DNA of 64,000 bases from Gordonibacter massiliensis (ex Traore et al. 2017) (GTDB taxonomy: Bacteria; Actinomycetota; Coriobacteriia; Coriobacteriales; Eggerthellaceae). Location: NCBI GenBank assembly GCA_900170005.1, contig LT827128.1:1364001-1428000 (forward strand), given 5' to 3'. Below the pieces are notes generated by a model. It saw nothing but the letters and a program-made list of their open reading frames with translations. It made no database searches and was not told where the DNA came from. Numbering within the stretch: the stretch's first letter is position 1; every line of letters starts with the position of its first letter. Shown piece by piece: positions 1,379 through 32,857 of the stretch. A program made the translations under genes and the position numbers.

Positions 1379-1458
1379 GCGTTCCGTTCAGAGTCGCCCC
1401 CGTTGCCGCCCGAGATATGCTTTCGGCCGCTAAGACGTGTTTTCGGCGACAGCACACG

Positions 1459-1494: not shown

Positions 1495-1517
1495 GCGTTG
1501 CGTTCTCGCCCTACCGA

Positions 1518-2540
<1,023 letters not shown>

Positions 2541-2586
2541 TTACCTTGGTTCAGGTTGTCGTCCTGGGCGGATGAATGCCCCGTTT

Positions 2587-2690: not shown

Positions 2691-2696
2691 TGGGGC

Positions 2697-7465: not shown

Positions 7466-7466
7466 C

Positions 7467-7757
7467 CTAGGCATGCGAGGCCCGCTTGTCGCGCACTGCG
7501 GCCATGAGATCCTCGCGAGACGAATAATAGCGCCCGTTCTCGAAATCCTCGCGAGATTGCCGAAGGGCCTGCGCCATGCGTTGCTCGTAAAGCGCCTGCT
7601 CGACGGCATCGTCAATTTTTCTTTGCAAAACGCCCTCCGACATGAAAGCGTACTTTCCGCGACCGTTCTCGGTGATGTAGACGATCTCGCTGTCCGCAAT
7701 CTCCTTGATTTCGCGCTGCTGATTTTTCAGCGCGGTGGAGGGGTAAATAGCCGGCAT
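7467..7757 (-). CDS. Phd/YefM-type antitoxin
   Basis: This 96-residue protein opens with MPAIYPSTALKNQQREIKEI, followed by VYITENGRGKYAFMS, the strand pattern of Phd/YefM DNA-binding domains (about residues 1-55). The C-terminal half (ALYEQRMAQALRQSREDFENG) is helical and acidic and would wrap the toxin. AAGGAG precedes the ATG at good spacing. It is the first gene of the pair, as usual for type II systems, and its promoter contains a perfect inverted repeat that it probably binds to autoregulate. Confidence 0.82.
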   Translation of the reverse strand: MPAIYPSTALKNQQREIKEIADSEIVYITENGRGKYAFMSEGVLQRKIDDAVEQALYEQRMAQALRQSREDFENGRYYSSREDLMAAVRDKRASHA

Positions 7758-11155: not shown

Positions 11156-12139
11156 TTACGACACCACGTTGACCGGGCGCTCCCCCGCGGCCACGCGGGC
11201 GACGTTCTCCCATACCGCGCGATGGGCGCGGTGGAACATGCCCTCGGTCACGCCGCCGATGTGGGGCGAGAGCACCACGCGATGGGCGGCTTCGGCGGGC
11301 AGGGCGAGCAGCGGGTGGTCGGCGGGAACGGGCTCGGGATGGAGCGTGTCGCAGCCCGCGGCCCCGATGGTGCCGTTCGCGATGGCGCGGGCCAGCGCCT
11401 CCTGGTCGACGATCTCGCCGCGCGCCGTGTTGACGAGCACGGCGTCGCTTTTCATGCGGGCGAGGAAGGCGTCGTCCACCATGCCGCGCGTGGCGTCGGT
11501 CACGGGCACGTGCAGGCTCACGATGTCGCACGTGGCGGCCAGCCGGTCCAGCTCCTCGAAGCGCACGCGCAGGCGCTCCTCGTCCCCGGCGGGCAGCGGC
11601 GTGCGCTTGTTGTAGACCATCTCGCAACCCCAGTTTGCCAGGCGCTCGGCCGTGGCCTGGGCGATGGCGCCGAAGCCCACGAAGCCCACCTTGCAGTCGC
11701 CCAGCTCGCGGATGCCCTCCACCATCATGCGCTCTTTCGTCTGTATCTGCCGCCCCGCGCGCACCGCGGCGTCGCCCGCCACCGCGTCGCGCAGGCACGC
11801 CAGCATGAGCAGGACGGTCTGCTCGGCCACCGCGCCCGCGTTGACGCCGGCGTTGTTGCACACGTGCACGCCCCGCTTGCGCGCCGCGTCGAGGTCGATG
11901 GCGTTGTAGGCCACGCCCTCGGAGTGGACGAGCTTGAGGTTCGGCATGGACGAGATGAGCTTGGCGCTCACCGGGCTGATGGCGTCGGCCAAGATGAAGT
12001 CGGCGTCGCCCGCCTGCGCCAGGATGGCGTCGTCGTCGGTGCCGCGCGGCACGACCTTCAGGTCGACCTCGCCCACGATGGGCAAATCGGGCAGGTACTT
12101 CCTCGTGCGGGCCTCGTCGCCTATCACCAAAAGCAGCAT
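11156..12139 (-). CDS. D-isomer specific 2-hydroxyacid dehydrogenase
   Basis: The protein has 327 residues. The catalytic domain is split around a Rossmann domain: HSEGVAYNAIDLDAARKRG, then the NAD loop GFVGFGAIAQATAERLANWG (about residue 145) and the catalytic Arg region LVNTARGEIVDQEALA. The His-containing LHPEPVPADHPLLALP and the PHIGGVTEGMFHRA motif follow. This is the phosphoglycerate dehydrogenase-like subfamily of NAD-dependent 2-oxoacid reductases; the substrate cannot be read from sequence. The ATG at 12139 follows GAAGGGG. It shares ancestry with serA at the left edge but has no ACT domain. Confidence 0.9.
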   Translation of the reverse strand: MLLLVIGDEARTRKYLPDLPIVGEVDLKVVPRGTDDDAILAQAGDADFILADAISPVSAKLISSMPNLKLVHSEGVAYNAIDLDAARKRGVHVCNNAGVNAGAVAEQTVLLMLACLRDAVAGDAAVRAGRQIQTKERMMVEGIRELGDCKVGFVGFGAIAQATAERLANWGCEMVYNKRTPLPAGDEERLRVRFEELDRLAATCDIVSLHVPVTDATRGMVDDAFLARMKSDAVLVNTARGEIVDQEALARAIANGTIGAAGCDTLHPEPVPADHPLLALPAEAAHRVVLSPHIGGVTEGMFHRAHRAVWENVARVAAGERPVNVVS

Positions 12140-12532: not shown

Positions 12533-15500
12533 CTAGCCGCGCAGGCGCCTGCGGGCGATGAGGGCAAAGCACGCGCACGCGAGGACGGCCATGAGCCCGG
12601 CAGCCAGAACGGGTATCGCGGCGTCGCCCGTGGAGGCTAGAGCCTTGACGCCGCTTGCGGAGCCGGGCGAACCAGCCGAAGCGCCGCCCGCAGAGCCGGT
12701 TTCGCTCCCTCCCTGCTCGAACGTGCCGAGCTGCTTGGCGGAGGCGAATGCGGCTTTGGCCTCGATCAGGTCCTTCGTCGCCGCGTCGACCTCGTCTTGC
12801 AGGGCGAGGGGGTCGTCCAGCACGGCTTGGGCCCGGGCTATCGCCGCGCGGTACGCGTCGAGCGCCCCTTGCGTGACGAACTCGGCACCGGATGCGACCT
12901 CGCCAGGGCCGGCCGCCACCGTCGCGGCGGCGACTTCCTCGCGCGCCTCCTTGACCAGCGAGGCCAACGCGGAGGTGTCGGCCTTCAGGCCCGCCCGCTT
13001 CGCATCGTCGAACGACGACGAGGCGGTCGCCAGGTCCCTCAGGGCGGCGTCCACGCCGTTCTGCGTGCGAGACGCGTTCTGCAGCTCCGATCGCGCAGCA
13101 GCCAAGGCCTGCTCGTATGCGTCGAACTGTCCCTGCGTGACCCACTTGTTCCGAGCGAGGACGTCGGTTCCGTCCACGCTCACCGTCGTGGCGGAAAGGT
13201 CTTCGGTGCCGGCCTTCACGGCTTCGGACAGCGCAGCCGTGTCGACAGCGGCGGTTTTGACGTGCGCGTTGAACGTCGCCAGGGCTTCGTTGAGGGCAGC
13301 CAGGGAGGCGTCCACCCCCGCCTGCGACGTATCGGCCGCAACGCCGTTGCCAGCCGCCGAGGCGATGGCGTCGACGACGTCTTGCGACGCTCCGATGGCG
13401 TTCTCGAGCGCCTGCAGATCCTCCGAGGTGCACCACGTCTTGCCATGGGGCACGTCGCGGCCGTCCGTCGAGATCGCCGGCCCATCGGCGGCGGCGCGCG
13501 CGATGGACAAAGCCGCGGCCAACGAGACCGTGGAGGGGTTGGCGGTGTTCGTAGAGGATCCGAAAGCCGCCGTTGCGCTCTTTACCGCCTGCAGCGCGGC
13601 GTCGACCTCGTTCTGCGTCGCCGCCGTGTTCGAGGCGACGGCGCCCTGGGCGTCGAGAACGGCCTGCAGCTGGTCAACATTCTCCTGGGTGGCCCAATCC
13701 CGGCCGGCGGGCACGTCGTTGCCGTCGACGCTGACGACGACCGCGTCCTTGGCCGCGGCGGCCTCGGCAAGCGACGACTTCAAAGCATCGTAGTCGGTGA
13801 CCGCCGTCTTCACGGCAGCGTCGAAGCTCGCTCTCGCGTTGCCGAGCGCTTGAGCGGCGGCGTCGATCTCGTCCTGCGCAGCATCGGCCTTCTCCGCCAC
13901 CGCCTTCGCGGCGGCTATCGCGTTCGTCAGGGCGCTCGCGTCGCTGGAAGCCACGTAGGTCGAACCGTTGGCGACGTCCTTGCCGTCGGCGCTGACCGCG
14001 ACGGTCTCGAGGGCGGATTCGGCCCCGGAAACGGCGGCCGTCAGCGCATCGAAGTCCTGCACGACCAGCAGCCGGTTGGAACCCGACCAGTCGTACTTCG
14101 AAAGCGACTCGTCCTTCGACGTCGTATAGGTTGCCAGCAAGTTGCTCGGCGAGTACGGATCGTTGACTTTGAAGGCGTTCGTAAGTGTTTTCACGGTTTC
14201 AGGAATCGTGAAGTCGTCCGGAAGGCGCACTAACGAGGTGCAGCCCGTGAAAGCACTCGAGATAGTAGTGACCGACGCGGGGATAAGAGGAGCCGTTGCT
14301 ATACCCGTACAATTCTGGAACGCACTCTGCAACGAGGTCACGGTATCGGGGATCACCGGGGCCTTCTTCAGTCCCGAACACCCGGAGAAAGACTCCCTCA
14401 TGTTCTCCAGTCCGTCGGGAAGCACCGGGGCCTCTTCGAGAGCCCGGCAGTTTTGGAAGCAGCGCCACATGTTCGTGACGCCGGCAGGTATCTTCGAGGG
14501 ACCCGTTTCGAGAGCGACGCAGTTCTGAAACGAAGCGAACATGCTGCCTTCGACGCTCCCCGGAATCTCGGGTGCCGTCTGCAGTGCCGTGCAACCGGCA
14601 AAAACGTTCGTGATGGTTTTCGTGCCTTCAGGAATAGCCGGGGCGCTCTCAAGCGACGTACATCCGCTGAAAGTTCCCGCCATGTTCTCAAGCGAGCTTG
14701 GAAGAGCCGGAGCAAGCTTCATGGACGTGCAGTTCTGAAACGAGCTCTCCATGTTCGTGACGCCGTCGGGAATAGCGGGAGCCATCTCGAGAGACGAGCA
14801 ACCGGAAAAGGTCGAGCTCATATTTTCGACGCTCTGAGGAATCGTCGAGACATCCTTCATCGACGAGCAACCCATGAACATGTTGGCCATCGAAGTCAAG
14901 CCTTCGGGAATTTCTGGCATTTTCTCCAAAGACGAGCAACCGATGAAAGCGGAAGAAGCCTCCCTTACGCTTGCGGGAATCATCGGGGCCTCTTTCAAGG
15001 AGCTGCAATTTCCAAAAGTTCCGTTCAAGCAACTCAACTTGCTAGGCAAAGAGGGGGCGGCTTCCAACGCGGTGCAGTCGGTGAACGTAGACCACATAGT
15101 GGTGATGGAGTCGGGTAAATTGGAAACCGTCAGGAGATTCGAGCAATACTGGAAGTAGAACGAAATATCAGTCGGCGTGACGCCTGGTTCGAAAACAACC
15201 GTTTCTATTTTCGTTTGAAGACCCGTATTCAGGGGATAGGTGACCCAAGGCGCTTCGCCCGAAGTGCTGAACTGTTTCAAATCGCCTGTTCCGGACACGA
15301 CGAATCGTCCATCGCTGTAAAGCGTCGCCGTCGCATCGGACGGCGTTTCCTTGCCGATGTCCCACGACCCGATCGCCGTGACGGGGGCCGCGGTGACGAA
15401 CTCGTACACGATGGGCTTGCCGAGCGATCGAGTGGTCTGCGGCTGCAAGTCGGCGCCGAACACCAGGTAGTACGTCTTGTTGGCCTCAAGACCGCTCGCC

Positions 15501-16675
15501 GTGATCTTCACGCCGTCGTACGAAGGCCAATCGCGATCCGGGTTCACCAAGGAGAAGCCCAGCGTGCCGCCGGCGGCGGAGGCGACCGGCGTCAAAGCGC
15601 TCGCGTCGAACGAGCCACCCGCCGTCGGGTCGCTGTCGTACACCAACACTTTGTCGGCGCACGTTCCGGTCCAGGTGTTCAGCAACTGCCAATTCGACCC
15701 GCTGCCGTCGGCATGGATCACCATCGAAACCGAACCGTCGTCGGCCAGAGTCATCGGCTGCCGCATCTTGTTGAACCAGCAGGAGCCTATCTTGGAAAGA
15801 TCGGTGACGACTTCAGACGGCGAAGGGGACATGATGCCGAGCTTCGTTCCGCCGTTGCCCTGTTCCCTCCCGTAGCCCGCTTGGGATTCGTCCCCGCTCC
15901 ACACGGCCGCCTTGTCGGTGAAGGTGTTGAATTCGAACACGATGTTCGCGTACAGGCGGGCCCACTGGCCGGCAGTGCCGTTCTTGACAACGAAATAGTA
16001 CGTTTGATCGGGGTCGATATTGCTTGCATCGACGGTGCAGACGATGTTCTTCCACCAGTTGTCGGAGGTGCCCAGCACGGACACGTTCGAAGCGTTCCCC
16101 TCCCAAACCACGTTGGCGGGATCGCTCCACGATGCGGGATCGTCGCTTTTGGTGACGAGCAGCCCGCCGTGGCCGTCGAACAGGTACACGGGGTTCACGC
16201 CCCCGGCGCCCACGTACGTCAACGTGAACTGCAAGGTCGCGGCGTTCGCGTCGTAGGAAGGAAGGATGATGTTCTTGTAGTAATACGGATCGCTGTACGT
16301 GCCCGAGCCGGACGTGTCAGTCTTGTTCATGTCGGTGAGCACGGATATCGTCGACCCCGTGACCGCCCCGTTGTCGTAGCCGGTGACTCCCTTCGACAAA
16401 GGATCGGTGAGCGACCAGGCCGGGAACCCTTTCCTCGAGGTGCCGCCCGACGACGCGTACCACGGATCGCTGGCCTCGTCCCAAGGCGAGTCCTGCCAGC
16501 CCTGGTACGGCTCGTAGCCGTCTTGCTGGCTGTAGACGATCGGCGTCGTCTCGGCATACGCACTCGAGGAGAGCCCGGGAGCAAGCGAAACGGCAAGAAT
16601 CGCAGCGATCGCGCACGCGAGCGCCAGCCCCAACCTCCTCTTCACGCCCCGGTTTCTCACGGCTTCGCACCCCAT
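12533..16675 (-). CDS. surface protein A: BspA-like repeats, five FIVAR-like modules, LASTG anchor
   Basis: This is a 1380-residue secreted protein. The signal peptide spans about 1-43 (NRGVKRRLGLALACAIAAI). Two beta-rich modules follow with the phrases TYYFVVKNG and TYYLVFGAD, shared with surface protein B. About 13 BspA/DUF285-like repeats of some 23 residues occupy about 490-840 (pattern PDGVTNMESSFQNCTSMKLA). Five FIVAR-like helical modules (about 870-1320) each open with a signature such as VSVDGNDV...W.T. The C-terminus has LASTG, a TM segment and RRRLRG, fitting a sortase substrate of the LAxTG kind. The ATG at 16675 has AAGGAGG. No sortase gene is in the window. The probable role is adhesion or ligand capture. 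Confidence 0.88.
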   Translation of the reverse strand: MGCEAVRNRGVKRRLGLALACAIAAILAVSLAPGLSSSAYAETTPIVYSQQDGYEPYQGWQDSPWDEASDPWYASSGGTSRKGFPAWSLTDPLSKGVTGYDNGAVTGSTISVLTDMNKTDTSGSGTYSDPYYYKNIILPSYDANAATLQFTLTYVGAGGVNPVYLFDGHGGLLVTKSDDPASWSDPANVVWEGNASNVSVLGTSDNWWKNIVCTVDASNIDPDQTYYFVVKNGTAGQWARLYANIVFEFNTFTDKAAVWSGDESQAGYGREQGNGGTKLGIMSPSPSEVVTDLSKIGSCWFNKMRQPMTLADDGSVSMVIHADGSGSNWQLLNTWTGTCADKVLVYDSDPTAGGSFDASALTPVASAAGGTLGFSLVNPDRDWPSYDGVKITASGLEANKTYYLVFGADLQPQTTRSLGKPIVYEFVTAAPVTAIGSWDIGKETPSDATATLYSDGRFVVSGTGDLKQFSTSGEAPWVTYPLNTGLQTKIETVVFEPGVTPTDISFYFQYCSNLLTVSNLPDSITTMWSTFTDCTALEAAPSLPSKLSCLNGTFGNCSSLKEAPMIPASVREASSAFIGCSSLEKMPEIPEGLTSMANMFMGCSSMKDVSTIPQSVENMSSTFSGCSSLEMAPAIPDGVTNMESSFQNCTSMKLAPALPSSLENMAGTFSGCTSLESAPAIPEGTKTITNVFAGCTALQTAPEIPGSVEGSMFASFQNCVALETGPSKIPAGVTNMWRCFQNCRALEEAPVLPDGLENMRESFSGCSGLKKAPVIPDTVTSLQSAFQNCTGIATAPLIPASVTTISSAFTGCTSLVRLPDDFTIPETVKTLTNAFKVNDPYSPSNLLATYTTSKDESLSKYDWSGSNRLLVVQDFDALTAAVSGAESALETVAVSADGKDVANGSTYVASSDASALTNAIAAAKAVAEKADAAQDEIDAAAQALGNARASFDAAVKTAVTDYDALKSSLAEAAAAKDAVVVSVDGNDVPAGRDWATQENVDQLQAVLDAQGAVASNTAATQNEVDAALQAVKSATAAFGSSTNTANPSTVSLAAALSIARAAADGPAISTDGRDVPHGKTWCTSEDLQALENAIGASQDVVDAIASAAGNGVAADTSQAGVDASLAALNEALATFNAHVKTAAVDTAALSEAVKAGTEDLSATTVSVDGTDVLARNKWVTQGQFDAYEQALAAARSELQNASRTQNGVDAALRDLATASSSFDDAKRAGLKADTSALASLVKEAREEVAAATVAAGPGEVASGAEFVTQGALDAYRAAIARAQAVLDDPLALQDEVDAATKDLIEAKAAFASAKQLGTFEQGGSETGSAGGASAGSPGSASGVKALASTGDAAIPVLAAGLMAVLACACFALIARRRLRG

Positions 16676-17237
16676 ACCGTTCCTCCTTGTTCTCCTAGAT
16701 GGACACGCTTGCGCCAAGCCTCCGCAAACGCGAGGCTGACGCTGTGCAATGGATTTCGCTTTCGCAGCCCTTCGATCGAGAAGCTGCGGAAGCGAAATCT
16801 TCGAGTCAATGCCCGATATAGGTAATATTCTAGTAACGAAATAATTCAGCCGAACGGAGAAAATCTCATGTTGGCTGTTCGCCGAGAACTGGCCGTTATC
16901 TTCCGCCATATTGTCACTTATTCACCGTTTGGCGAACGACCGACGTTTTTCGAAATCCGTGCGTCCGCGAACGATCCGGTCGCAAGCAGGCTGCCCCGAC
17001 GCGCTGCGATGCGGGACCGAAGCGAGAAAGGCTTTGCGGCGCAACGGCTTCGCAACGCCAACAACGTTGCACGGCAGGGCCGCGTGGTGCTTTGCATCCC
17101 CTGCGATGAGCGATGCCGCCGTTTCGCGAAACCGGCGCGTTGCCGTATGGTAAAGCGCGAAGGAAAAACCGAGGGGATCGCTCGAATTATCGGACGGCGA
17201 CGAGCCTCGGACCATCCGCACGACGGATGGAAGCAGC
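16676..17237. other. intergenic region upstream of surface protein A
   Basis: The first 250 bases are AT-rich against the surroundings, with a minus-strand TAGAAT (16827-16832) as possible -10 and the 34-bp motif at 16887-16920. From about 16950 to 17230 the sequence is GC-rich with no codon pattern on either strand. A perfect 7-bp hairpin (CCATCCG/CGGATGG, 17212-17230) stands just before the cysK-like fragment. Confidence 0.4.
16887..16920 (-). promoter_or_regulatory. 34-bp conserved motif, copy 1 (upstream of surface protein A)
   Basis: Plus-strand AACTGGCCGTTA, then CTT, then CCATATTGTCACTTA. A second copy at 37984-38017 matches 30 of 34 positions and lies upstream of surface protein C. 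Both face large surface-protein genes on the minus strand, so a shared regulator site is the simplest reading. Confidence 0.6.
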
Positions 17238-17347: not shown

Positions 17348-17902
17348 CTACCCCGCCTGCCTCATGCGGGCGAGCAGGGGTTTGCAGGCGTTGCTGAACA
17401 CGAGCATGACCAGGGGGCGCACCACGAGGAAGCAGAGCGCGTAGGCCGCCGCGGCGGCAAGGGGGAGCGTGCCGGCGTAGGCGCCGGCGAACGCGCCCAG
17501 GGGAACGCCCGAGAGCGTCACGCCGATGGCGCACATAACGGGCGCCATGATGCACACGTTCACCAGCACGAGCACGGCCGACACGCCCACGCCCTCGCGC
17601 CTGCCGCCGCAGATCTTGTCGAGCAGCCAGAAGCTGAGCCTGTTCGCGAACAGGCTTCGCACGGTGAACGCGATGCAGAACCACAGGGGGAACGACGCGA
17701 GCAGCGCCAGCGGGTCGAACGAGGGCGCCGGGTGCACGACGACGTTCACGAACAGGATCATGGCCGTGGCCATGCCCACCACGAACAGCGTTTGGAACAA
17801 GGTGCCCTCGCCTTCCGAGGAGGGCGCGTCGAAGTCGCCGCGCAGACAGTCGACGTAGGTGTAGCGAAACCGGCGCTCGCCGGGGTTCTCGGAACGGGTC
17901 AT
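17348..17902 (-). CDS. four-TM membrane protein, DUF2798-like
   Basis: This 184-residue protein starts MTRSENPGERRFRYTYVDCL, with GAAGAGGTG upstream. Four helices lie at about 40-63, 72-93, 105-128 and 140-165. The two halves look alike (LWFCIAFTVRSLFANRLSFW against YALCFLVVRPLVMLVFSNAC), a duplicated two-helix unit like DUF2798. A 255-base gap separates it from the DUF2149 gene upstream, so membership of the same transcript is uncertain. Function unknown. Confidence 0.7.
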   Translation of the reverse strand: MTRSENPGERRFRYTYVDCLRGDFDAPSSEGEGTLFQTLFVVGMATAMILFVNVVVHPAPSFDPLALLASFPLWFCIAFTVRSLFANRLSFWLLDKICGGRREGVGVSAVLVLVNVCIMAPVMCAIGVTLSGVPLGAFAGAYAGTLPLAAAAAYALCFLVVRPLVMLVFSNACKPLLARMRQAG

Positions 17903-18157
17903 ACGGCACCTCTTCTTCTCGCGATCGCGCCGCACAACGGCGGACGCACGCGGACGCGCAGGCGGCGCGTCCGCGAAACTGATGTCCAGTGGTTTGTTGG
18001 TGTTGGTGCCGACCGGGAAACCCGGCAGCGCTGCTCCGCCCCACAAAGGCAAGCGAGATGACTCCAGTGTAGCGCGCATCGCGCACCAGCGGCACGGTTT
18101 CTCCACATTCCGCACCGGCGAACGGCTGTCCACGCAATCGAAAAGACGTGTCGCCTT

Positions 18158-18493
18158 CTACTCTCCCCCCTCCGGGGCCACCACGTAGAGTTGGCCGGTT
18201 TCCTCGTCGCGGTAGACGGTGCCGAGGTTCTCGTAGGTGCTGCCGCTCGCGGCGATGCCTTCTTCCACCGCCTCCAAGTCACCCTGTATCTCGCGGATGG
18301 CGGGGCTGCCGCCCGACGTGCGCACGCTTTCCAAATCGACGTTCCAGTTGGCGATGAGCGCCAGCAGAAGGCCGCAGGCGAACACCAGCATCACGTCCAT
18401 GAGGTTGCCCATCGACCCCATGGGGTCGCGCTCGTCGTCGTCCAGAAGCTTCGAGCCCGCCAAACGGGAGGCCTTCAGATCACGCTTCGGCAT
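18158..18493 (-). CDS. DUF2149-family membrane protein (ExbD-like partner)
   Basis: This 111-residue protein has an N-terminal cytoplasmic part with LLDDDERDPMGSMGNLMDVM, one TM helix (about 38-55, VFACGLLLALIANW) and an extracytoplasmic tail with YRDEETGQLYVVAPE. The D-P-x-x-x-x-x-N-L-x-D-V block entering the TM is the DUF2149 hallmark and has the topology of ExbD/TolR/MotB: a single TM beginning with a conserved Asp. The ATG lies inside the end of the upstream ExbB-like gene (14-base overlap), so the two are translationally coupled. It probably completes a proton-driven motor. Confidence 0.78.
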   Translation of the reverse strand: MPKRDLKASRLAGSKLLDDDERDPMGSMGNLMDVMLVFACGLLLALIANWNVDLESVRTSGGSPAIREIQGDLEAVEEGIAASGSTYENLGTVYRDEETGQLYVVAPEGGE

Positions 18494-19214
18494 GGAGGGC
18501 CGCCTTTCCCTCGAGCGCCAAAGCCGCGACGTCGGCCGGAAAGCCCGCCCGGCTCGGGAACGCGAACCCCTCCGCATGCAGGGCGTCCGCCTTCTCTAAG
18601 ATCGTGTTCATGGCGCCCTCGACGCTGATCAGGTAGTCGGCGTACCAGCGACGCCGCACCTTCGTCACCAGGAAGCACACGACGGCCACCGCGAGGCCGG
18701 CCACGGTCGTGTCGAACGCCACCAAAAGCGACGACGACAGCGTCTCCAGGTCGCCCGAGCTCAGGGCCACGATGCCCGGGCCCAAGGGGATGAGCGTGCC
18801 CATCAAGCCCAGCATGGGGGCGATCTTCACGGCGGAATCGGTGAAGGAAAGCGCCTTCTGGTACCGCGCGCTCTCGTCGGCCAGCAGGCGCTTGGCCACC
18901 TCGGTGAGGGCGTCTTCGGGCAGGTACATATACGAGACCAGCTCCCTCAGGCCGTTCCTTTGGGAGTCCAGCAGGCCGCTTCGGTCGATCACGCCGTCGA
19001 GCTGCCCGTAGGGCGCCGCGTCGAGGTCGGCGATCAGCCGCGGCAGCGCCACCCGGTAGCGCCGGCGTTCCACCGCCACCTCCACCACCAGCGAGCCGAG
19101 CGTGTACACGGCGTACGCGGCCAGTATCACCAGGCAGACGACGGTGGGGATGAGCAGCCCCTGCGACAGCGCGTGGAGCGCGTCGTTGGCGAAGAATTGG
19201 TTGAGGAAGTTCAT
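18480..19214 (-). CDS. MotA/TolQ/ExbB proton-channel family protein
   Basis: This 244-residue protein has TM1 at about 18-40 (LLIPTVVCLVILAAYAVYTLG), a cytoplasmic loop of about 85 residues, and TM2/TM3 at about 127-150 and 165-190. APMLGLMGTLIPLGPGIVAL and LLVAFDTTVAGLAVAVVCFL carry the conserved G-T and T-T residues of the family. ExbB/TolQ use ion flow to move an ExbD/TolR-like rod; here the rod candidate is the overlapping DUF2149 gene. In a cell with no outer membrane the classical TonB role is unavailable, so its task in this operon is open. The ATG at 19214 has AAGGA 11 bases upstream. Confidence 0.88.
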   Translation of the reverse strand: MNFLNQFFANDALHALSQGLLIPTVVCLVILAAYAVYTLGSLVVEVAVERRRYRVALPRLIADLDAAPYGQLDGVIDRSGLLDSQRNGLRELVSYMYLPEDALTEVAKRLLADESARYQKALSFTDSAVKIAPMLGLMGTLIPLGPGIVALSSGDLETLSSSLLVAFDTTVAGLAVAVVCFLVTKVRRRWYADYLISVEGAMNTILEKADALHAEGFAFPSRAGFPADVAALALEGKAALHAEA

Positions 19215-19276
19215 GAGGTCGAAATCCTTTCAGAGAGCTCGAAGATGCGGAGCGGGAAGCGGTTGCGCACTCGGGG

Positions 19277-20287
19277 TCAGGTTGCCTGCACGATCAGGTC
19301 CCGCGCGCATTGGAATCCTCCGGCGACCCAGCGCCGGTGCAGGCAGTTCTTGCACGACGGCCTGCGGTCGATGCATTCTTCCGCGTCGTTGTCCCACTCG
19401 AAGGCGGGGCACACGCGCGACCAGCTGTCGTCCGCGTTGCCGATCTCCCCCAGGTCGACCTTGGAGCACGGATGCGCCACGCCGTCGACGACGTCGCACA
19501 CGACCGTGAGCGCGCCGTCGTGCAGGACGGGCTTCCCTTCCGCGTCGAGGGCGAAGGGAAGGTTGGGGGCCAGGCCCTCGCCTCGCGCGTCGACGAGCCG
19601 GACGGGGCCGCGGAAATCGCGGGCGAGACGGCAGGCGACCGCCGCCACGTCGCAAGCGACTTCGCCCGCGCAGAGCTTCGAGAAGTTCCACTTGCCCCGG
19701 AAGCGCCCGTCGTTGCCCCCTAGGCGCAGGCCCACGCCGGCCAGGGCCCCCACCACGCCGGACCCGTCGCCGCCGTGCTCGCTCAAGCTCACCCAGGGGA
19801 TGCGTCCCGCCAGATCGTAGGCCGATTCGATGCTGCAGAAGTCGACCTTCGCCCGGTACCCGAACGCGACGAGCGCCTCGACCATCCGTCCGTCCTCGCC
19901 CTCGAGGCCCGTCCCAGCCCAAAGCGCGGCCCTGGGCACGCGCGCCACGCAGAGCCCCGGGTCCGACGTGGGGGCGCGGTGCTCCGCGATGATGCGCATC
20001 GCGCGCAAGCGCATCTCCCCGATGCGCGACGGCGGCATGAGGGCCTCGAACACCATCGAGGAGTTGTGCGAGGTGTAGGGCACGTCGTCGCGCAGCAAAA
20101 GCTGGTGGCGCGTCACCTCGAGCCGCAAACTCCCTCCCAGCTCCACGGCGGCCGATGCGACGAGGCTCGCTATCTCCCCGGTGGACGTCGCGCGGGTCTC
20201 GTCGTCGGTGTCGTCGATGCCCACGACAACCGCGACGAGGTCCGAGGCGGCCGAATCCGCCGGCGTGTTCATCAGATGGGCGCGCAT
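19277..20287 (-). CDS. TiaS-like protein with Cys-rich C-terminus
   Basis: This 336-residue protein starts near VAVVVGIDDTDDETRATSTG, the GIDDTD motif of archaeal TiaS (tRNA-Ile2 agmatinylcytidine synthetase). The next part (RHQLLLRDDVPYTSHNSSMV, then RIIAEHRAPTSDPGLCVA) also follows the TiaS N-terminal domain. The C-terminus has a Cys cluster (VCPAFEWDNDAEEC, PSCKNCLHRR, FQCARD) suggesting a metal site. Bacteria normally modify tRNA-Ile2 with TilS, so a different substrate is likely. The ATG directly follows the TAG of the binding-protein gene. The role in the ABC operon is unknown. Confidence 0.7.
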   Translation of the reverse strand: MRAHLMNTPADSAASDLVAVVVGIDDTDDETRATSTGEIASLVASAAVELGGSLRLEVTRHQLLLRDDVPYTSHNSSMVFEALMPPSRIGEMRLRAMRIIAEHRAPTSDPGLCVARVPRAALWAGTGLEGEDGRMVEALVAFGYRAKVDFCSIESAYDLAGRIPWVSLSEHGGDGSGVVGALAGVGLRLGGNDGRFRGKWNFSKLCAGEVACDVAAVACRLARDFRGPVRLVDARGEGLAPNLPFALDAEGKPVLHDGALTVVCDVVDGVAHPCSKVDLGEIGNADDSWSRVCPAFEWDNDAEECIDRRPSCKNCLHRRWVAGGFQCARDLIVQAT

Positions 20288-21478
20288 CTACCTTCCCCCT
20301 CCGCTTCCGGATCCGCTGCCTTGGCCCTCTTGCCCGCCGGACCCTTCGGCACGCAGCCCCTCGCCTGCCACGATGGCTTCCCACGTGGCGTCGTCGATGT
20401 CCAGCCCCACCACGTCGCGGTAGTAGGAGCGCACCGTTTCCTCCAAATCGACGTCCTCGTAGAGCTGCGGGTACAGCGTCTTTCCCAGCCAGAGCATGCC
20501 CAAAAACGTCTCGGGATCGCCGCGCTGGCCCCAGCGGCTCGTGGACACCGGCAGGTTGCGCACCTCGCCCGCCGCCACGGCGGCCATGCCCTGCCACTGC
20601 GCGTCGCCCAGGATGGAGCTGCGGGCGTCGGCGGTGCTGCACACGATGACGTCGGGGTTCCACGCGTACACCTGCTCGAGCGTGGCCGTGTAGTCGCCGG
20701 TGCCGCCCACGCCGGCCTCGCCGGCGGAGACGTCGACCGCGCCGCAGCGCACCACCCAATCGGCGCCGAGCGATCCGGACCCGTCCGTCAGCAGCGGGTC
20801 GTTGATGGAATGGTACACGCGCTTCCGCTCGCTTTCGGGAACGCTCGCGGCGCGCTCCTCCACGAGGGCGGCCGTTTCGCGGTAGTATTCCGCGACGGCC
20901 GCGGCCTTCTCGGCGGCCGCGGGGCCGCACACCCGGCCCACCAGCTCGATGGCGTCCTGCTGCTCCTCCACCGTGGAGTAGTCCACCACCACGTACGGGA
21001 TGCCCAGCTTGTCGAGCTTGGCGGTCTCCTCGCCCCCGTCGTACAGGTCCCGCTTGACCAAGGCGACGTCGACGCCGGCGGAAAGCAGGGTCTCCACGTT
21101 CACGCTGTTCCCTGAAAGCTGCTCGACCGATTCGAGTCCGGGACAGAGTTCTCGCAGCAGCTCGTTGGACAGGACGCCGCCCGGCGCCCCCATGAGCTTG
21201 TCGCCCGCCCCCGCCAGCACGCACACGTTGCCCGAGAAGGCGTCCAGCGCCGCGATGCGCTGCGGGTCCGCCGGCACGCTCACCGTGCGGCCGAGCGAGT
21301 CGACGACCTCCTTCGTCTCCGTCGCGGAGCCCTGTCCTGCAACGGCCGAGCCGTCGAACAGCGTCGCAAGCGAGCCTCCGTTCAGCGCGAACAGCCCCAG
21401 GCCGCACACCGCCACGATGAGCAACCCCACCGCTGCCGACGCCAAGACCGTTTTCGCACCGCGTTTCTGCGTTGTCAT
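20288..21478 (-). CDS. FecB/BtuF-type substrate-binding protein, membrane-anchored
   Basis: The protein has 396 residues. An uncleaved or signal-type helix is at about 10-32 (VLASAAVGLLIVAVCGLGLF) without a proper lipobox, so anchoring is by TM rather than lipid. The binding-protein domain runs from VVDSLGRTVSVPADPQRIAA through LLSAGVDVALVK, AWNPDVIVCSTADA and WGQRGDPETFLGMLWLGKTL, the pattern of helical-backbone binding proteins for metal chelates and corrinoids. The C-terminal tail is Gly/Ser-rich. It overlaps the ATPase gene by ATGA. The ligand cannot be read from sequence; a metal complex (heme, siderophore or corrinoid) is the family expectation. Confidence 0.87.
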   Translation of the reverse strand: MTTQKRGAKTVLASAAVGLLIVAVCGLGLFALNGGSLATLFDGSAVAGQGSATETKEVVDSLGRTVSVPADPQRIAALDAFSGNVCVLAGAGDKLMGAPGGVLSNELLRELCPGLESVEQLSGNSVNVETLLSAGVDVALVKRDLYDGGEETAKLDKLGIPYVVVDYSTVEEQQDAIELVGRVCGPAAAEKAAAVAEYYRETAALVEERAASVPESERKRVYHSINDPLLTDGSGSLGADWVVRCGAVDVSAGEAGVGGTGDYTATLEQVYAWNPDVIVCSTADARSSILGDAQWQGMAAVAAGEVRNLPVSTSRWGQRGDPETFLGMLWLGKTLYPQLYEDVDLEETVRSYYRDVVGLDIDDATWEAIVAGEGLRAEGSGGQEGQGSGSGSGGGR

Positions 21479-22416
21479 CGAGTATCCTCTCCCGTCTCGC
21501 TCCCCGTCGTGCTCAGGGGGACGATCTGCCTCACGACGGCCGCGCGGCCGTCGTCGAAACCCTCCAAGTCCCCGCCTCGCCGGAACCGAACCTCGGCGAC
21601 GGCGGCCGCCACGCCGAAGTAACGCCAGAGCGCGTCGGGCGTCAGCACCTCGTCGGGCGTCCCTTCCCGCGCCACCCGCCCGTGCGACATGAGCGCCACC
21701 TTCACGTTCAGGCCGGCGGCCGCCAGATGGAACGCCTGGTTCGGCGCGTGCGTGGCCATGAGGACGGTCGCGTCGCGCTCGCGCACCAGCCGTTCGACCG
21801 TCTCAAGGAACACCAGCTCGTTCTTGAAGTCCAGGTGCGCCGTGGGCTCGTCCAGCACGATGAGCGGCGTGTCCTGCACGAGGGCGCGCGCCAGCAGCAC
21901 CATCTGCATCTCGCCGCCGGAAAGCGCCGTGCACGCCCGCTCGCGCAAACGGTCGATGCCGCACGTCTTCAGCGCCTCGAGCGCGCGCCGCCGATCGTCC
22001 GCGTCCGTCGATCCGAAGCCCGCCTGGTAGGCCGTGCGGCCCATGAGCACCAGATGCTCCACCGTGTAGGGGAACGTGCGCTCGTGCATCTGGGGAACGT
22101 AGGCCAGAAGGCGCGCCCGCTCCCAGGCCCGCATGCCAGCCGTGTCGCCGCCGTCGACCTCGATGACGCCGGACGCCGGCCTGTTCTCGCCCAGCACGCA
22201 GTCGAGGAACGTCGATTTTCCGCACCCGTTCACGCCCATCAGGCAAACGACCGACCCCCGCTCCACCTCGAGCGAGAAATCCTGCAGCACGCGATGGTCC
22301 CCCCACGAAAACCGCACGTCGCGCGCCTTGAGCATCGGAGGGGACGCCGACCGGGCGGCTTCGGCCCCCGCCGCGCGGTCGGCCGTCGGCGACGCCGCGC
22401 TTGCCGATCCGGTCAT
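21475..22416 (-). CDS. FecE/BtuD-type ABC transporter ATPase
   Basis: The protein has 313 residues. Walker A is GVNGCGKSTF, the Q-loop region AYVPQMHERTFPYTVEHLVL, the signature ALSGGEMQMVLLARAL, Walker B PLIVLDEPTAHLD and the H-loop ATH. The C-terminal 40 residues (FRRGGDLEGFDDGRAAVV) form an extra tail. It energises the permease encoded immediately upstream. The ATGA overlap on both sides shows tight coupling with permease and binding protein. Confidence 0.93.
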   Translation of the reverse strand: MTGSASAASPTADRAAGAEAARSASPPMLKARDVRFSWGDHRVLQDFSLEVERGSVVCLMGVNGCGKSTFLDCVLGENRPASGVIEVDGGDTAGMRAWERARLLAYVPQMHERTFPYTVEHLVLMGRTAYQAGFGSTDADDRRRALEALKTCGIDRLRERACTALSGGEMQMVLLARALVQDTPLIVLDEPTAHLDFKNELVFLETVERLVRERDATVLMATHAPNQAFHLAAAGLNVKVALMSHGRVAREGTPDEVLTPDALWRYFGVAAAVAEVRFRRGGDLEGFDDGRAAVVRQIVPLSTTGSETGEDTR

Positions 22417-23429
22417 CGCCAGCCACCGCCCTTCGTCTTCTTGAGCAGGTACACGAAGAACGGCGCGCCGATGAGGGCCGTGAGTATGCCGAGCGGCACC
22501 TCGCTCGCCCACAGGCAGCGGGCGCAGGTGTCGACGACAACGAGGAAGGCGCCGCCGAGCGCCATGGAAACGGGGATGAGGCGCCTGTTCTCGCTTCCCA
22601 CCAGCATGCGCCCGATGTGCGGCACGATGAGCCCCACCCATCCCACCACGCCGGCCATGCACACGGCGCCGGACGTGGCGAACGTGGCCGCCGCCACGAT
22701 GACGCCCTTGTCCCGGCCGACCTCGAGCCCCAGCGAGCGCGCCTCCTTGTCGCCCATGGACAGCACGTCCACACGCCCCGCGAACAAGACCAGCACGACG
22801 CAGCCGGCGGCCATGACGGCGACCGACCAGAAGTTCTCCCATCCCACCGACGAGAGGCTCCCCATGAGCCAGTACACGATCGACGGCAGCTGCGTGTCGG
22901 CGTCGGCCACGTACTTCATGAGCGACACCAGCGCCGAGAACACGCTCGACACGATGGTGCCGCCCAGGATGAGCATGATGGTGGGCGCGCTTTTGTACAC
23001 CCGCGCGATCCAGTAGCTGGCGCATACGGCCACGATCCCGAACAAGAACGCCGACGGGTAGACGGCCGCGCCGCCGCCGAACAGCACGATGGCGAGCGCG
23101 GCGCCGAAGCCCGCGCCGTTGCTCACGCCCAGAAGGCCTGGGTTCACCAACGGGTTGCGGAACACCCCTTGGAACGCCGCGCCGGAAGCCGAGAGCGCCG
23201 CGCCCACGGCTGCGGCGGCCAGCGCGCGCGGCAGGCGCACCTGCAGCACCAGCGTCGCGGACTCGGGCGTGACGGCGGCAGGGCCCCCCGGCAGCCACGA
23301 CACGAGCGCTTGGCACACCTCGGGCAGCGTCAGCGCGTAGCGTCCGCAGAACAGCGACGCGAACACGCAGACGAGCGGCAACGCGAAGATCGCCGCCGAC
23401 CTGAGGAAGCCGCCGTCAGAGCGCGCCAT
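22413..23429 (-). CDS. FecCD-type ABC transporter permease
   Basis: This 338-residue protein has about ten TM helices. Family motifs include RLPRALAAAAVGAALSASGA, FQGVFRNPLVNPGLLGVSNG and the coupling region LSMGDKEARSLGLEVGRDKG, all standard for the BtuC/FecCD/FhuB group that imports siderophores, heme and cobalamin. PHIGRMLVGSENRRLIPVSM is the conserved C-terminal cytoplasmic loop. The start overlaps the end of the upstream flavoprotein gene by 14 bases. Confidence 0.94.
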   Translation of the reverse strand: MARSDGGFLRSAAIFALPLVCVFASLFCGRYALTLPEVCQALVSWLPGGPAAVTPESATLVLQVRLPRALAAAAVGAALSASGAAFQGVFRNPLVNPGLLGVSNGAGFGAALAIVLFGGGAAVYPSAFLFGIVAVCASYWIARVYKSAPTIMLILGGTIVSSVFSALVSLMKYVADADTQLPSIVYWLMGSLSSVGWENFWSVAVMAAGCVVLVLFAGRVDVLSMGDKEARSLGLEVGRDKGVIVAAATFATSGAVCMAGVVGWVGLIVPHIGRMLVGSENRRLIPVSMALGGAFLVVVDTCARCLWASEVPLGILTALIGAPFFVYLLKKTKGGGWR

Positions 23430-24888
23430 GTGCGCTCCCTTCGCAATCGCCCGTCGCCACGAGCGCGACGCCGGTGCGCGCGATATCGCTTTCCAGCACC
23501 TCGCCCATGCGCACGGGGGCTTGGACGCTCAAGCGGCGGCAGGCGCGGGCGACGTCGAACAGCCGGTCCTTCGGCACCGGGCGCTCCGTGCGCACGGGCA
23601 CGAGCGGACGGCGGCCGCCGGCAACGGCGACGGTGCCCGTGAACATCCGCGTGGGACAGGCCAGCTCGCGCCGGGCGAACTCATCGCCGCGCGGGCAGGT
23701 GTTGCCCGTCACCCCGCCGTGCTCGGACGCCTCCATCACGCATCCGGTCGGGCACACCGTGCACACGATGCGCTGGACGCCGGCGGGCAGGTCGCCGCCC
23801 ACGTCGCCCATCCTGCCTTTCGGCTCGCCGATGGAAAGGCCGACCATGCGCGCCAGGTCGTCGGGCAGCGCGGGAGCCGGCTTTCCGGACAGCGCGGCCG
23901 CATGGGCCGCCGCGGCGATACCGGTGCGCAAGCCCTCCTGCGTCACCTGGTCCACCAGGTCGTGCGGCACGTTGGCGTTGCCGCAAAGGAACAGGCCCGA
24001 AGCGTCGGGCGCGAGCGCCGGGGAGTCCAGCACCTCGCGCTCGGGGACGAGCCCGCACGCCACCAGCAAGACATTGCAGCGCACGTATTCCTTGCGCGCC
24101 AGGTCGAACGATCCGTCGGCCCGCAAGGGCGCCACGGTGACCCCTTGCAGCTGCCCGTAACCGTGGACGCTCGCCAAGCCCCAGCCGTAGCGAAGGGGGA
24201 TGTCGAAATCCTGGATGCACCGGATATGGTTGCGCACGAGGCCCGTGGCCTCCTGCCCCAGAACCAGGCGCACCTCGGCGCCTTCCAGCGTCATGCGCCG
24301 CGCCATGATGAGGCCGATGTCGCCCGACCCCAGCACGACGGCCTTGTCGCCCGGAAGCTGGTTGGCCACGTTGACCATGTACTGGGCCGACCCCGCCGTC
24401 AGCACGCCGGCCGGGCGGCCTCCCGGTATCTGCAGCGCCCCGCGCGTTCGCTCGCGGCACCCGGTCGCGCACACGACGGAGCGCGCGACCAGCGTCGCTC
24501 GGCCGCCCAAGGAGGGTCCGAGGGCGTCGATGCGCAGCAGCCCGTCGGCCGACGGGCCCTCCACCGACAGCACCGTCGCGGCAAGCGCCGTCGGCACGTC
24601 GTCACCGCGCACGCGTTCGATCCAACGATGGGAGAACTCGGGGCCCGTGAGGGGCTCTCCGTACAGGTACAGGCCGAACCCGTCGTGGACGCACTGGGGC
24701 AGCACGCCGCCCAGGTACTCCTCGCGCTCCAGCACGAGCGTCCGGTACGGGCCGCTCTCCGCGACGGCGACCGCAGCCGCCATCCCCGCCGAGCCGCCCC
24801 CTATGACGACCGCGTCGAACACGCCGTCCACGTCGACGCGCCCTTTCGCGGCCGGAAGGTCCCGCCCCTCCGCTACCGGCTTCCTCAT
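23416..24888 (-). CDS. FAD/NAD(P) oxidoreductase fused to DUF1667
   Basis: The protein has 490 residues. The flavoprotein part (about 1-370) has AVVIGGGSAGMAAAVAVAES, CATGCRERTRGALQIPGGRP, a second dinucleotide loop VVLGSGDIGLIMARRM and CGLVPEREVL. DUF1667 follows (about 375-490): IVCTVCPTGCVMEA, NTCPRGDEFARREL and PTRMFTGTVAV, with four conserved Cys. In many Firmicutes these two parts are separate genes next to a GlpA-like dehydrogenase; here they are one protein. The ATG overlaps the upstream GlpA-like stop (ATGA). It is likely an electron-transfer partner of that gene product. Confidence 0.87.
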   Translation of the reverse strand: MRKPVAEGRDLPAAKGRVDVDGVFDAVVIGGGSAGMAAAVAVAESGPYRTLVLEREEYLGGVLPQCVHDGFGLYLYGEPLTGPEFSHRWIERVRGDDVPTALAATVLSVEGPSADGLLRIDALGPSLGGRATLVARSVVCATGCRERTRGALQIPGGRPAGVLTAGSAQYMVNVANQLPGDKAVVLGSGDIGLIMARRMTLEGAEVRLVLGQEATGLVRNHIRCIQDFDIPLRYGWGLASVHGYGQLQGVTVAPLRADGSFDLARKEYVRCNVLLVACGLVPEREVLDSPALAPDASGLFLCGNANVPHDLVDQVTQEGLRTGIAAAAHAAALSGKPAPALPDDLARMVGLSIGEPKGRMGDVGGDLPAGVQRIVCTVCPTGCVMEASEHGGVTGNTCPRGDEFARRELACPTRMFTGTVAVAGGRRPLVPVRTERPVPKDRLFDVARACRRLSVQAPVRMGEVLESDIARTGVALVATGDCEGSAHGAL

Positions 24889-26360
24889 GCCCGCTTCACC
24901 TGCCTTTTGACCACGCGTCCGCCGCGCTCGCCCTTCGCGATCTCCCAGGGCGCGCACCCCAGCTCGTCGGCCATGATCTCCAGGATGCGCGGCGTGCAGA
25001 AAGCGCCCTGGCAGCGCCCCATGCCGCAGCGCAGCCGGCGCTTCAACCCGTCGAGGGTGCGCGGCGGCAGCGTGTCGTGCATACAGCTGCGGACATCGCC
25101 TTCGGTGACGCGCTCGCAACGGCACACCACGTGCCCGTAGCGCTCGTCGGCTTCGAGCAGCGCGCGCTGCTCGGCGGCGGTGCAGTCCATGAAGGGCCTC
25201 CGGTGCGCGGGGCCCTGGTCGCGCGGATCGAAGCCGGGCGACTCCTCCAGGCGCAGGCCTTGCTCCCCCAGCAACCGAAGCGCCCGGTCGGCAAGCGCCG
25301 GAGCGCTGGTCATCCCCGGGTTCTTGATGCCGAGCGCGCTGACGAAGCCGGGCGCCGACACGCGCACCACGAAATCCTTCTTCTCCTTCTCGACGTTGAC
25401 GATGTTGGCCCGGATGCCGGAGAACTCGGTGATGACCTGCCCGAAATCCAAGTCGGGCACCAGCTTGCGCGCGACGCGCTTCACGTGCTCGATGCCCGCC
25501 TTCGTCGTGGCGTTGTCGGCGAAGGACCGCACGTTCTCGCTCGTGGGACCCGCCAAGAGGTTGCCGTCGACGGTGGGGGCGAGCAGCGTGCCTCCCTCGT
25601 CGGTCTCCTGCGCCTGGAACAGCACGTGGCGGATGGGCTCCTTGCCCGCAAGGCCGCCTTCCTGCTTGTCGAACACGACGAACTGGCCTCGGCGGGGGCG
25701 CACCACGATGTCGGCCGCGTGCACCTGCACGTCCAGCAGCGCCGCCTCCTCTCCGGCCATGTTCACCACGTACGGCGCCCGGACCCGGCGACCGTCCTTC
25801 GCGCGCAGCTCCCATCGGCCCGAGACGCGCTCGATGGCGTCGACCTCGAAGCCGAACTCGAACCGAACGCCGTTGGCGACGGCGTTGCGCGCCGTGGCCA
25901 GCGCGAGGTCGAACGGCGAGACGATGCCCGTCGTAGGGGCGACGAGCGCCGCGACGACGCGCTCGGACAGACGCGGCTCCAAGCAGCGGGCCTCGTCGCC
26001 CGAGACGACCTCCAAGTCGCCCGCCCCGTTCAGCCGCGCGCGCTCGCGCTTCTCGGCGATATGCTCCACCCCGGCAGGGTGGAACGCCACGTACAGGGCG
26101 CCCACGCGCTCGAACGGCACCTGCAGCTCGTCGGCGATGGAATCGAAGCACGCGTTTCCTTCGACGCAGCTCGTCCCCTTCAGGCTGCCGCCCCGCGGGT
26201 GGAACCCGGTGTGGACGAGCCCGCTGTTCGCCTTGGTGGCGCCTTCGCCCACGTCGTGGGCGGCTTCCAGCACGCACACGTCCAGCCGGTACCGAGCCAG
26301 GGCGCGCGCCATGGTGCACCCCAGGATGCCCGCGCCGACTATCGCTACGTCAACGTCCAA
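24885..26360 (-). CDS. GlpA/LhgO-like FAD-dependent dehydrogenase with [2Fe-2S] C-terminus
   Basis: The protein has about 491 residues. The FAD loop is DVAIVGAGILGCTMARALAR and the DAO-family body has KANSGLVHTGFHPRGGSLKG and TEFSGIRAN. The C-terminal BFD-like domain carries VVCRCERVTEGD and CGMGRCQGAFC, four Cys for a [2Fe-2S] cluster, as in anaerobic glycerol-3-phosphate dehydrogenase GlpA. No ATG lies near the conserved start; I chose TTG at 26360, which has GAGGGAAG at good spacing. The substrate is a 2-hydroxyacid or polyol phosphate in known relatives; with an ABC importer and LxxTG proteins around it, another role such as ligand reduction is possible. Confidence 0.85.
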   Translation of the reverse strand: MDVDVAIVGAGILGCTMARALARYRLDVCVLEAAHDVGEGATKANSGLVHTGFHPRGGSLKGTSCVEGNACFDSIADELQVPFERVGALYVAFHPAGVEHIAEKRERARLNGAGDLEVVSGDEARCLEPRLSERVVAALVAPTTGIVSPFDLALATARNAVANGVRFEFGFEVDAIERVSGRWELRAKDGRRVRAPYVVNMAGEEAALLDVQVHAADIVVRPRRGQFVVFDKQEGGLAGKEPIRHVLFQAQETDEGGTLLAPTVDGNLLAGPTSENVRSFADNATTKAGIEHVKRVARKLVPDLDFGQVITEFSGIRANIVNVEKEKKDFVVRVSAPGFVSALGIKNPGMTSAPALADRALRLLGEQGLRLEESPGFDPRDQGPAHRRPFMDCTAAEQRALLEADERYGHVVCRCERVTEGDVRSCMHDTLPPRTLDGLKRRLRCGMGRCQGAFCTPRILEIMADELGCAPWEIAKGERGGRVVKRQVKRA

Positions 26361-26437
26361 AATCGTCTTCCCTCTCGTCTCTTTCGCCGCGTTCCCGTCG
26401 CCCGTGCAGGACGCCCCCCTTGCGGCCGAACCGCTTC

Positions 26438-27448: not shown

Positions 27449-27526
27449 CCCCGAAAAACGCTGTTCAAGCGACGCGTTGACCCCGACCGATCGGAGCCAA
27501 CGCGTCCATAATATCTCTACTTGAGA
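27449..27526. promoter_or_regulatory. hairpin in the gap between surface protein B and the Ig-like protein
   Basis: A perfect 9-bp inverted repeat, GACGCGTTG (27471-27479) and CAACGCGTC (27498-27506), is followed on the minus strand after 11 bases by TTTTT. The palindrome GAGATTAATCTC (27523-27534) spans the stop of the upstream gene. It could be a partial terminator that lowers downstream expression within the operon. Confidence 0.4.
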
Positions 27527-32755: not shown

Positions 32756-32857
32756 AGAGGTCCTTCCTGTCGGCTTCAACCGTCTTTCGTAGAGCTTTCG
32801 GAACCGGGTCGAGCGAACCCCGGCTCGGTAGCCGCGACCCGATTCCCGTATCCCGGG

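Follow-up and report, generated by a model that had tools for sequence, protein, structure and literature searches.

ExbB/ExbD-type motors have been described mainly as devices that reach the outer membrane. In the Ton system the D-box of TonB (ISVTMVT, alternating as Phi-z-Phi-z-Phi-Phi-z) adjoins the membrane anchor and is captured by the ExbD dimer through strand recruitment, and the ExbD substitution L132Q abolishes transport as well as D-box binding (PMC10907165). For the hmu operon of Bacteroidota (HmuY-R-S-T-U-V), operon tables annotate DUF2149 next to ExbB (PMC10434189) and HmuU and HmuV are drawn as powering the outer-membrane receptor HmuR (PMC12583661); elsewhere HmuU and HmuV are left uncharacterised, and an effect of HmuT, HmuU and HmuV on the activity of HmuS was not excluded by the authors (PMC13227078). 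The Ton parts that monoderms carry are regarded as probably without function in PMC12204202, where DUF2149 is not mentioned, and a term search showed neither monoderm nor DUF2149 in a 2026 review (PMC12905483). Here an ExbB-DUF2149 gene pair was analysed in a stretch of 64,000 nucleotides from Gordonibacter massiliensis (ex Traore et al. 2017) (contig LT827128.1, positions 1,364,001 to 1,428,000; hereafter the window, with positions counted from its first letter), where it forms the minus-strand end of an importer gene run.

The pairing itself had been taken as unknown in the original prediction for this locus; it is, however, the already annotated HmuU-HmuV pair of the hmu operon, and it was also found in archaea and other Actinomycetota. 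What that prediction had right is the motor in a monoderm importer operon, and the new element is a recurrent D-box-like tail on proteins encoded near the motor (clients). We lean slightly towards ExbB-DUF2149 being a proton-driven motor whose load is the receptor, anchored at its C-terminus and working like an inverted TonB, in a cell without outer membrane. Proton flow would turn the DUF2149 pair, with its transmembrane (TM) helix carrying Asp33, inside the ExbB ring, and the C-terminal hairpins of DUF2149 would grip a short strand of the client just outside the membrane. The client would be a ligand-binding protein that is exported and held in the membrane by its C-terminal TM, and since the gripped strand belongs to the client, receptor and force transducer would be one polypeptide. 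Its ectodomain would be pulled, twisted or reset through the wall, leading to release of the ligand (of the product in the case of CobN/HmuS), and the freed ligand would pass to the binding protein and then to the FecCD importer.

The two genes share 14 nt (18480-18493) if DUF2149 starts at the ATG at 18493, which gives a protein of 111 residues; the listed open reading frame (ORF), of 139 residues, begins earlier. With PF01618 and PF09919 both matched above their cut-offs (Table 1), the predicted ExbB with an overlapping single-TM DUF2149 protein was confirmed. ExbB residues T140 (18795-18797) and T170 (18705-18707), whose positions correspond to those of the pore threonines in TM2 and TM3, were invariant in 24/24 aligned homologues. 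The TM of DUF2149 begins N-L-x-D, and its Asp33 (18395-18397) was Asp in 70 of 71 homologues and Glu in the other, which supports an ExbB/ExbD-like pair with the TM Asp; Gly91 was kept in 71/71. AlphaFold2 (AF2), run on DUF2149 with 71 sequences, predicted a helix at residues 24-49 and strands at 93-95 and 102-104 (mean predicted local distance difference test score, pLDDT, 69.9). In the DUF2149 protein the ExbD family PF02472 was not matched at E up to 0.1 and PF09919 was the sole domain found; by family test the protein is not ExbD, but by its predicted anatomy it appears ExbD-like.

The genome (3.95 Mb, single contig) holds two DUF2149 and two MotA_ExbB genes, adjacent at both places. No match was obtained in it for ExbD (PF02472; 5/14 control genomes positive), TonB_C (PF03544; 3/14), Omp85 (7/14) or CobN (PF02514; 5/14), and a sortase was present (3/14 controls positive). 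Because both ExbB genes are accompanied by DUF2149 and PF02472 had no match, ExbB-DUF2149 motors are the only ones of this family found in the cell. With no outer-membrane marker found and a sortase present, the cell seems to lack an outer membrane, in line with the monoderm cell of the original prediction, for which absence of TonB and an outer membrane had been expected. A CobN-driven hmu system was ruled out for this genome, as CobN had no match. Against the second species of the genus (L034), the ratio of nonsynonymous to synonymous substitution rates (dN/dS) was 0.117 for ExbB and 0.183 for DUF2149; the other genes compared gave 0.148 (binding protein), 0.160 (ATPase), 0.193 (TiaS-like protein), 0.263 (candidate client) and 0.325 (FecCD). 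The pair is thus under purifying selection. DUF2149 was found in 2/3 listed genomes of the genus, with no match in the third (G088).

For comparison, 105 loci were collected via either DUF2149 or ExbB, leaving out the duplicates L069 and L071-L075 and the short L041; genes were called with our own codon model instead of a standard caller, and some calls were wrong (extended ExbB ORFs at L202, L203 and L209). Among the 105, all having an ExbB call, DUF2149 followed ExbB on the same strand in 101, which together with the second pair in the genome argues that the pairing is not due to chance. DUF2149 was present in 31/296 sampled genomes of the class (Coriobacteriia) and 18/396 of the phylum. A scan of named genomes with an ExbB profile matched at least 592 stretches, 568 of them relatives; the best 80 of these were examined and came from Coriobacteriia, Thermoleophilia, Nocardioides, Frondihabitans, Conexibacter, methanogens, ANME archaea and one Firmicutes metagenome-assembled genome, while plasmid records added Bacteroidota hmu operons and a Runella hyp operon. 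The archaea, the other Actinomycetota and the surveys of class and phylum rule out a pair unique to this organism. On the Runella plasmid (L219), ExbB-DUF2149-CobN lies within a hydrogenase hyp operon having a TonB-dependent receptor, a context in which the ligand may be nickel or a tetrapyrrole containing nickel.

The motor recurred next to importers of FecCD, Tup-like and ECF-like (energy-coupling factor) type, with Tup-like, CbiQ/ECF-like and GlpA/GlpB-like being labels given partly by eye. Eggerthellaceae-type loci (a label of the same kind) combined FecCD and a binding protein with large surface proteins; other Coriobacteriia contained an ECF-S-like gene, a propeller-like protein and a TiaS-like gene, often with a Tup-like importer; in Thermoleophilia and Actinomycetes the partner was either a toroid protein or a surface protein with PKD domains accompanied by importers of Tup-like or FecCD type, and ECF-like genes were present in some of the loci; and methanogen loci mostly had DUF2162 and often CobN. 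At L055, a riboswitch for molybdenum or tungsten cofactor (Moco/W, RF01055, 65 bits; 11365-11491) lies upstream of the Tup-like importer, just past the ExbB-DUF2149-TiaS-like cluster. Clients with a prenyltransferase-type alpha-alpha toroid stand next to ECF-like genes at L112 (8144-9928, also with an Ig-like domain) and L197 (11059-12999); we take these to resemble transcobalamin/intrinsic factor.

With fixed cut-offs, a same-strand protein with a C-terminal TM (C-TM) and short tail was found within 1.5 kb of the motor in 61/105 loci. Many of these neighbours have a linker of low complexity together with a short strand (V-x-G-x-x-Phi; the box) that lies 11-36 residues ahead of the TM, and this tail was common to ectodomains of unrelated kinds: methanogen CobN (VEGYEM, VSGHVM, VQGMVM), actinobacterial PKD proteins (VTGELL, VDGYLL, VRGILL, VSGQLI) and propeller-like proteins (LSGYVL, VHGALL). 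That C-TM neighbours share a short strand at the anchor suggests that the motor pulls the receptors themselves. No such motor-client tail was described in titles or abstract openings on ExbB/ExbD, the D-box, HmuS/CobN or HmuU/HmuV among the matches listed.

The box was counted in 58 C-TM candidates encoded on the same strand less than 4 kb from the motor (plus the L034 counterpart of the window candidate, at 7.2 kb), after dropping candidates more than 60% alike and removing by hand clusters of motor subunits, transporters, GroEL-like and amidohydrolase-like proteins and the odd ORFs c273 and c609. The strict box, V.G.[VLMIE][LMIV], was present in 25/58 (shuffle mean 0.9, maximum 6 in 500 shuffles) and, with CobN clients removed, in 10/42 (mean 0.7, maximum 4). 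Looser patterns discriminated less: a relaxed pattern, frequent by chance, matched 33/58 against 9.6 in shuffles (maximum 19), and a D-box-shaped pattern with a middle Gly allowed matched 17/58 against 4.5 (maximum 11). Classified with K added to the strict pattern, the 105 loci comprised 28 with a strict box, 13 more with a relaxed one, 20 with C-TM only and 44 with none. Near the motor the strict box occurred in 25/50 proteins and far from it in the same loci in 3/27 (Fisher p=0.001; c273 and c609 were kept here); two of the three far hits were client families further off. The pattern had been suggested by the same data as those used in the shuffle test, and other tests were therefore sought.

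A comparison among CobN genes covered 9 genomes, 6 of them with CobN, and 19 genes were kept after two contig-end fragments were dropped and two frames of one gene merged. CobN with a C-terminal TM lay within 20 kb of DUF2149 in 6/7 cases, CobN without TM in 2/12 (Fisher p=0.006). The strict box was found in 5/7 TM-tailed and 0/12 TM-less CobN, the remaining two having KKGKVM and KAYEIE; this test was partly out of sample, three of the five strict boxes (L096, L104, L120) being in the discovery set. As out-of-sample sets, Bacteroidota genes and 13 new actinobacterial loci were used. All four Bacteroidota CobN/HmuS proteins next to ExbB-DUF2149 end in a TM (by eye) and three have a box-like segment (VKGYKM, DKGTVM, TKGGMVL), the fourth having EALVLES. 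Of the 13 actinobacterial loci, 2 had the strict box and 1 the close form ISGDVV; in 4 more there was a variant of AYEV type that was recognised only afterwards, and 6 had none. In a Firmicutes locus (L213, same place as L141), VRGKVL was seen by eye in a protein overlapping ExbB, with the TM under threshold. In the Methanosarcina locus L096, three TM-tailed CobN (L166, L164, L159) follow consecutively downstream of one ExbB-DUF2149 pair, all with VEGYEM.

In this genome the clearer client case is at the second locus, where the gene of a surface protein (L003, 8429-10411) overlaps the second ExbB gene by 4 nt. Its model (mean pLDDT 65 overall, mostly 75-92 in the SUOX-like domain) shows Ig-like domains followed by a SUOX/pterin-binding-type fold: residues 356-526 aligned with the pterin-binding PruR 7kp2 (Z 12.2, root mean square deviation 2.6, 125 aligned residues), with the sulfite dehydrogenase 8s5s (Z 8.6) and with the bacterial oxidoreductase 1xdy, whose cofactor contains W (Z 8.3). 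The modelled domain thus shares the SUOX/pterin fold, which does not imply binding of pterin or molybdopterin. By sequence the domain gave no PDB hit to that fold and no Pfam match up to E 1, and the plain Foldseek list for the model was dominated by its Ig-like domains. The SUOX-like fold may extend to actinobacterial PKD proteins and to a small protein of Coriobacteriia, as weak profile similarity (55-79% probability) suggests. The juxtamembrane segment of this client, RWQVFEMM, is a family variant of the box. In the window, the candidate at 26438-27448 carries a box-like LGGGVLY (26609-26629) and a C-terminal TM (26480-26536); compared with L034, LGGGVLY is identical, the TM has one edge substitution and the linker an indel. 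Its ectodomain gave no Pfam match up to E 0.05, and homology of it to the neighbouring giant surface proteins was not accepted (best phmmer E 0.013).

Table 1. Features of the window considered here.
Feature	Position	Strand	Evidence
DUF2149, minimal ExbD-like subunit (putative), 111 aa	18158-18493	-	PF09919 E=4.3e-8, 33.8 bits (cut-off 27.1)
Predicted DUF2149 C-terminal hairpin, residues 91-105	18179-18223	-	G91 conservation and AF2
ExbB/TolQ-like proton-channel subunit, 244 aa	18480-19214	-	PF01618 E=1e-12, 48.3 bits (cut-off 22.9)
TiaS-superfamily protein, 336 aa, extra Cys-rich C-terminus	19277-20287	-	Profile comparison with TiaS structures
Peripla_BP_2 ABC (ATP-binding cassette) substrate-binding protein	20288-21478	-	PF01497 E=6.5e-11
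ABC ATPase	21475-22416	-	PF00005 4.6e-28; NF007082 3.6e-57
FecCD/BtuC-type permease	22413-23429	-	PF01032 9.9e-85; BtuC model 9.6e-70, under its cut-off
FAD/NAD oxidoreductase with DUF1667, GlpB-like by eye	23416-24888	-	PF07992, PF07892
FAD oxidoreductase with BFD [2Fe-2S] domain, GlpA-like by eye	24885-26360	-	PF01266, PF04324
Candidate motor client	26438-27448	-	Sequence anatomy: signal-peptide-like start, ectodomain, Pro/Gly-rich linker, C-terminal TM, basic tail
Giant surface proteins, three, 1380-1742 aa as called	12533-16909, 27527-32779, 32858-37780		LRR_5 and FIVAR in the one scanned

The pair closes a minus-strand run in which FecCD permease, ABC ATPase and Peripla_BP_2 protein together make up a FecCD/BtuCD importer set. 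Most neighbours abut or overlap, with a gap of 62 nt before ExbB and one of about 77 nt before the genes of the two enzymes using flavin adenine dinucleotide (FAD). The pair does not follow the FecCD system immediately, as a TiaS-superfamily gene, which the original prediction had missed, and the 62-nt gap intervene. The top NCBIfam models for the ATPase were of corrinoid, F420-0 and heme types, each under its cut-off. The FAD enzymes belong to the same run, and a part for them in the motor system is doubtful. A profile of 12 relatives of the TiaS-like protein matched the structures 3au7 and 4rvz at E of about 6e-11 (3au7: 5.6e-11); the protein was not named TiaS because the single sequence scored far under the NCBIfam TiaS cut-off. 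Its family also adjoins ExbB-DUF2149 in other Coriobacteriia, and modification of the imported ligand may be its role. The Cys-rich C-terminal addition (CX6CX2CX11C) occurred only in the window and L034 in the alignment of 12. Promoters and terminators within 17800-27700 (0 and 3 found) were no commoner than in shuffles; no riboswitch was found in the window, and a search of 8 other loci gave only tRNAs. The three giant surface proteins, whose tails consist of LxxTGD, a TM and a basic end, are probably sortase substrates. Elsewhere in the window, genes at 1-6702 resemble by eye those of branched-chain amino acid and serine synthesis (SerA-, IlvC-, IlvN-, IlvB- and IlvD-like), and two adjoining small ORFs at 7205-7757 look toxin-antitoxin-like by eye, with no Pfam match at E 0.001.

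Several observations weigh against a motor that pulls its own receptors. In the window, the box of the candidate is weak, fitting the relaxed pattern only, and the gene lies 7.2 kb upstream of ExbB with the two FAD enzymes between; for these reasons the likelihood that it is the client of this locus is about evenly balanced. Confidence in the AF2 model of DUF2149 is modest, and the model contains a hairpin rather than a full ExbD domain. Across loci, 44/105 had no C-TM protein within 1.5 kb (partly owing to rough gene calls and the TM threshold), and the strict box was missing in 33/58 candidates, including the window candidate and the Eggerthellaceae-type c17 clients, which carry RWQVFEMM-like segments in its place. 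The box was also sparse in the 13 new actinobacterial loci, where some misses came from poor gene calls, and export of clients was judged from sequence anatomy instead of a systematic signal-peptide test. As to CobN, one TM-tailed protein (L160) sits 74 kb from DUF2149, two TM-less ones, both in a Firmicutes genome, are 4.9 and 19.8 kb from it, and the CobN clients share descent, so that the counts are not independent. Finally, L042, L043, L044 and L047 have importer genes on both sides of the pair, that of the binding protein immediately before ExbB and that of FecCD immediately after DUF2149, and no client between.

The arrangement in those four loci, together with the common run in the window, is what one would expect if the motor energised the ABC importer or binding protein directly, by docking or opening, without a separate client. 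ABC import is already powered by ATP, though, and the importer type varies between loci, methanogens having CobN and DUF2162 instead, while C-TM proteins recur; we give a direct action on the importer a small chance. The chance is likewise small, if marginally larger, that the motor serves not uptake but the wall itself or adhesins anchored in it, for instance by remodelling, spacing or displaying the BspA-like giants. Three giant surface proteins do flank the operon and large surface proteins recur at Eggerthellaceae-type loci, but the giants end in what look like sortase signals (LASTGD, LVKTGD and LLKTGD by eye) and not in the client tail, the motor is repeatedly accompanied by importer genes, and PF09919 was the sole known domain found in DUF2149. 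The original prediction had the rod act on surface proteins or on the binding protein: the comparative evidence favours the former, and the latter retains some likelihood in view of L042, L043, L044 and L047.

A functionless Ton-type remnant, or an hmu fragment acquired horizontally by a monoderm, would account for the patchy presence in class, phylum and genus and for the genome having no CobN match, and non-function is what PMC12204202 suggests for Ton parts in monoderms; given dN/dS of 0.12-0.18, conserved motor residues, two loci in the genome and the recurrent association with importers, it is improbable. Weak matches to ZorA (E=0.024) and to MotP, PomA and MotA (E 0.003-0.012) would fit an anti-phage Zorya-type or a flagellar-type stator, which we consider hardly credible, as DUF2149 had no match in PADLOC and the neighbours are nutrient importers and surface proteins.

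If the motor does pull its receptors, it might represent a separate TonB-independent class in Archaea, Actinomycetota, a Firmicutes lineage and Bacteroidota, with the receptor or dechelatase as force transducer, its C-terminal TM docking at the ExbB ring and its strand acting as a working D-box; this wider reading is put forward tentatively, as falling somewhat short of probable. The Bacteroides motor would then drive HmuS and not the outer-membrane receptor alone. A motor-driven HmuS would fit what is reported for B. theta, where the activity that converts heme is located in membrane fractions and HmuS made without membrane anchors stopped after 1-2 turnovers, for which the authors name other possible causes (PMC12583661).

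Among described systems, the hmu operon has the same pair as the window (HmuU being ExbB-like and HmuV DUF2149) and, in HmuS, a membrane-anchored CobN-like dechelatase with a C-terminal TM; it differs in belonging to a diderm with a TonB-dependent receptor, whereas the genome of the window has no CobN match. The DUF2162-ExbB-DUF2149-CobN clusters of methanogens again contain the pair, with TM-tailed CobN carrying boxes of VEGYEM/VSGHVM type, but there a CobN-like protein takes the place of the client and ABC importers are no regular component. In the Isd-type relays of Gram-positives, surface proteins hand the ligand to a binding protein and FecCD-type importer, and no motor is known there. 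The vWA force transducers are another non-TonB partner of a TolQ-like motor; they differ in that rotation within the pentamer is predicted for one vWA family (PMC12204202). With the Ton system the locus shares an ExbB-like ring subunit, a rod subunit with a TM Asp and, in the clients, a strand next to the anchor with a low-complexity linker, and boxes such as VTGELLS and VSGKVMK follow the alternation of the TonB D-box with Gly in the middle. It differs in having no match to TonB, to an outer-membrane marker or, in DUF2149, to PF02472, in that the strand is part of the receptor and stands ahead of its C-terminal TM, and in that the middle hydrophobic residue is usually Gly; a motor that pulls membrane-anchored receptors through the cell wall in this manner would widen the roles of ExbB/ExbD-type motors.

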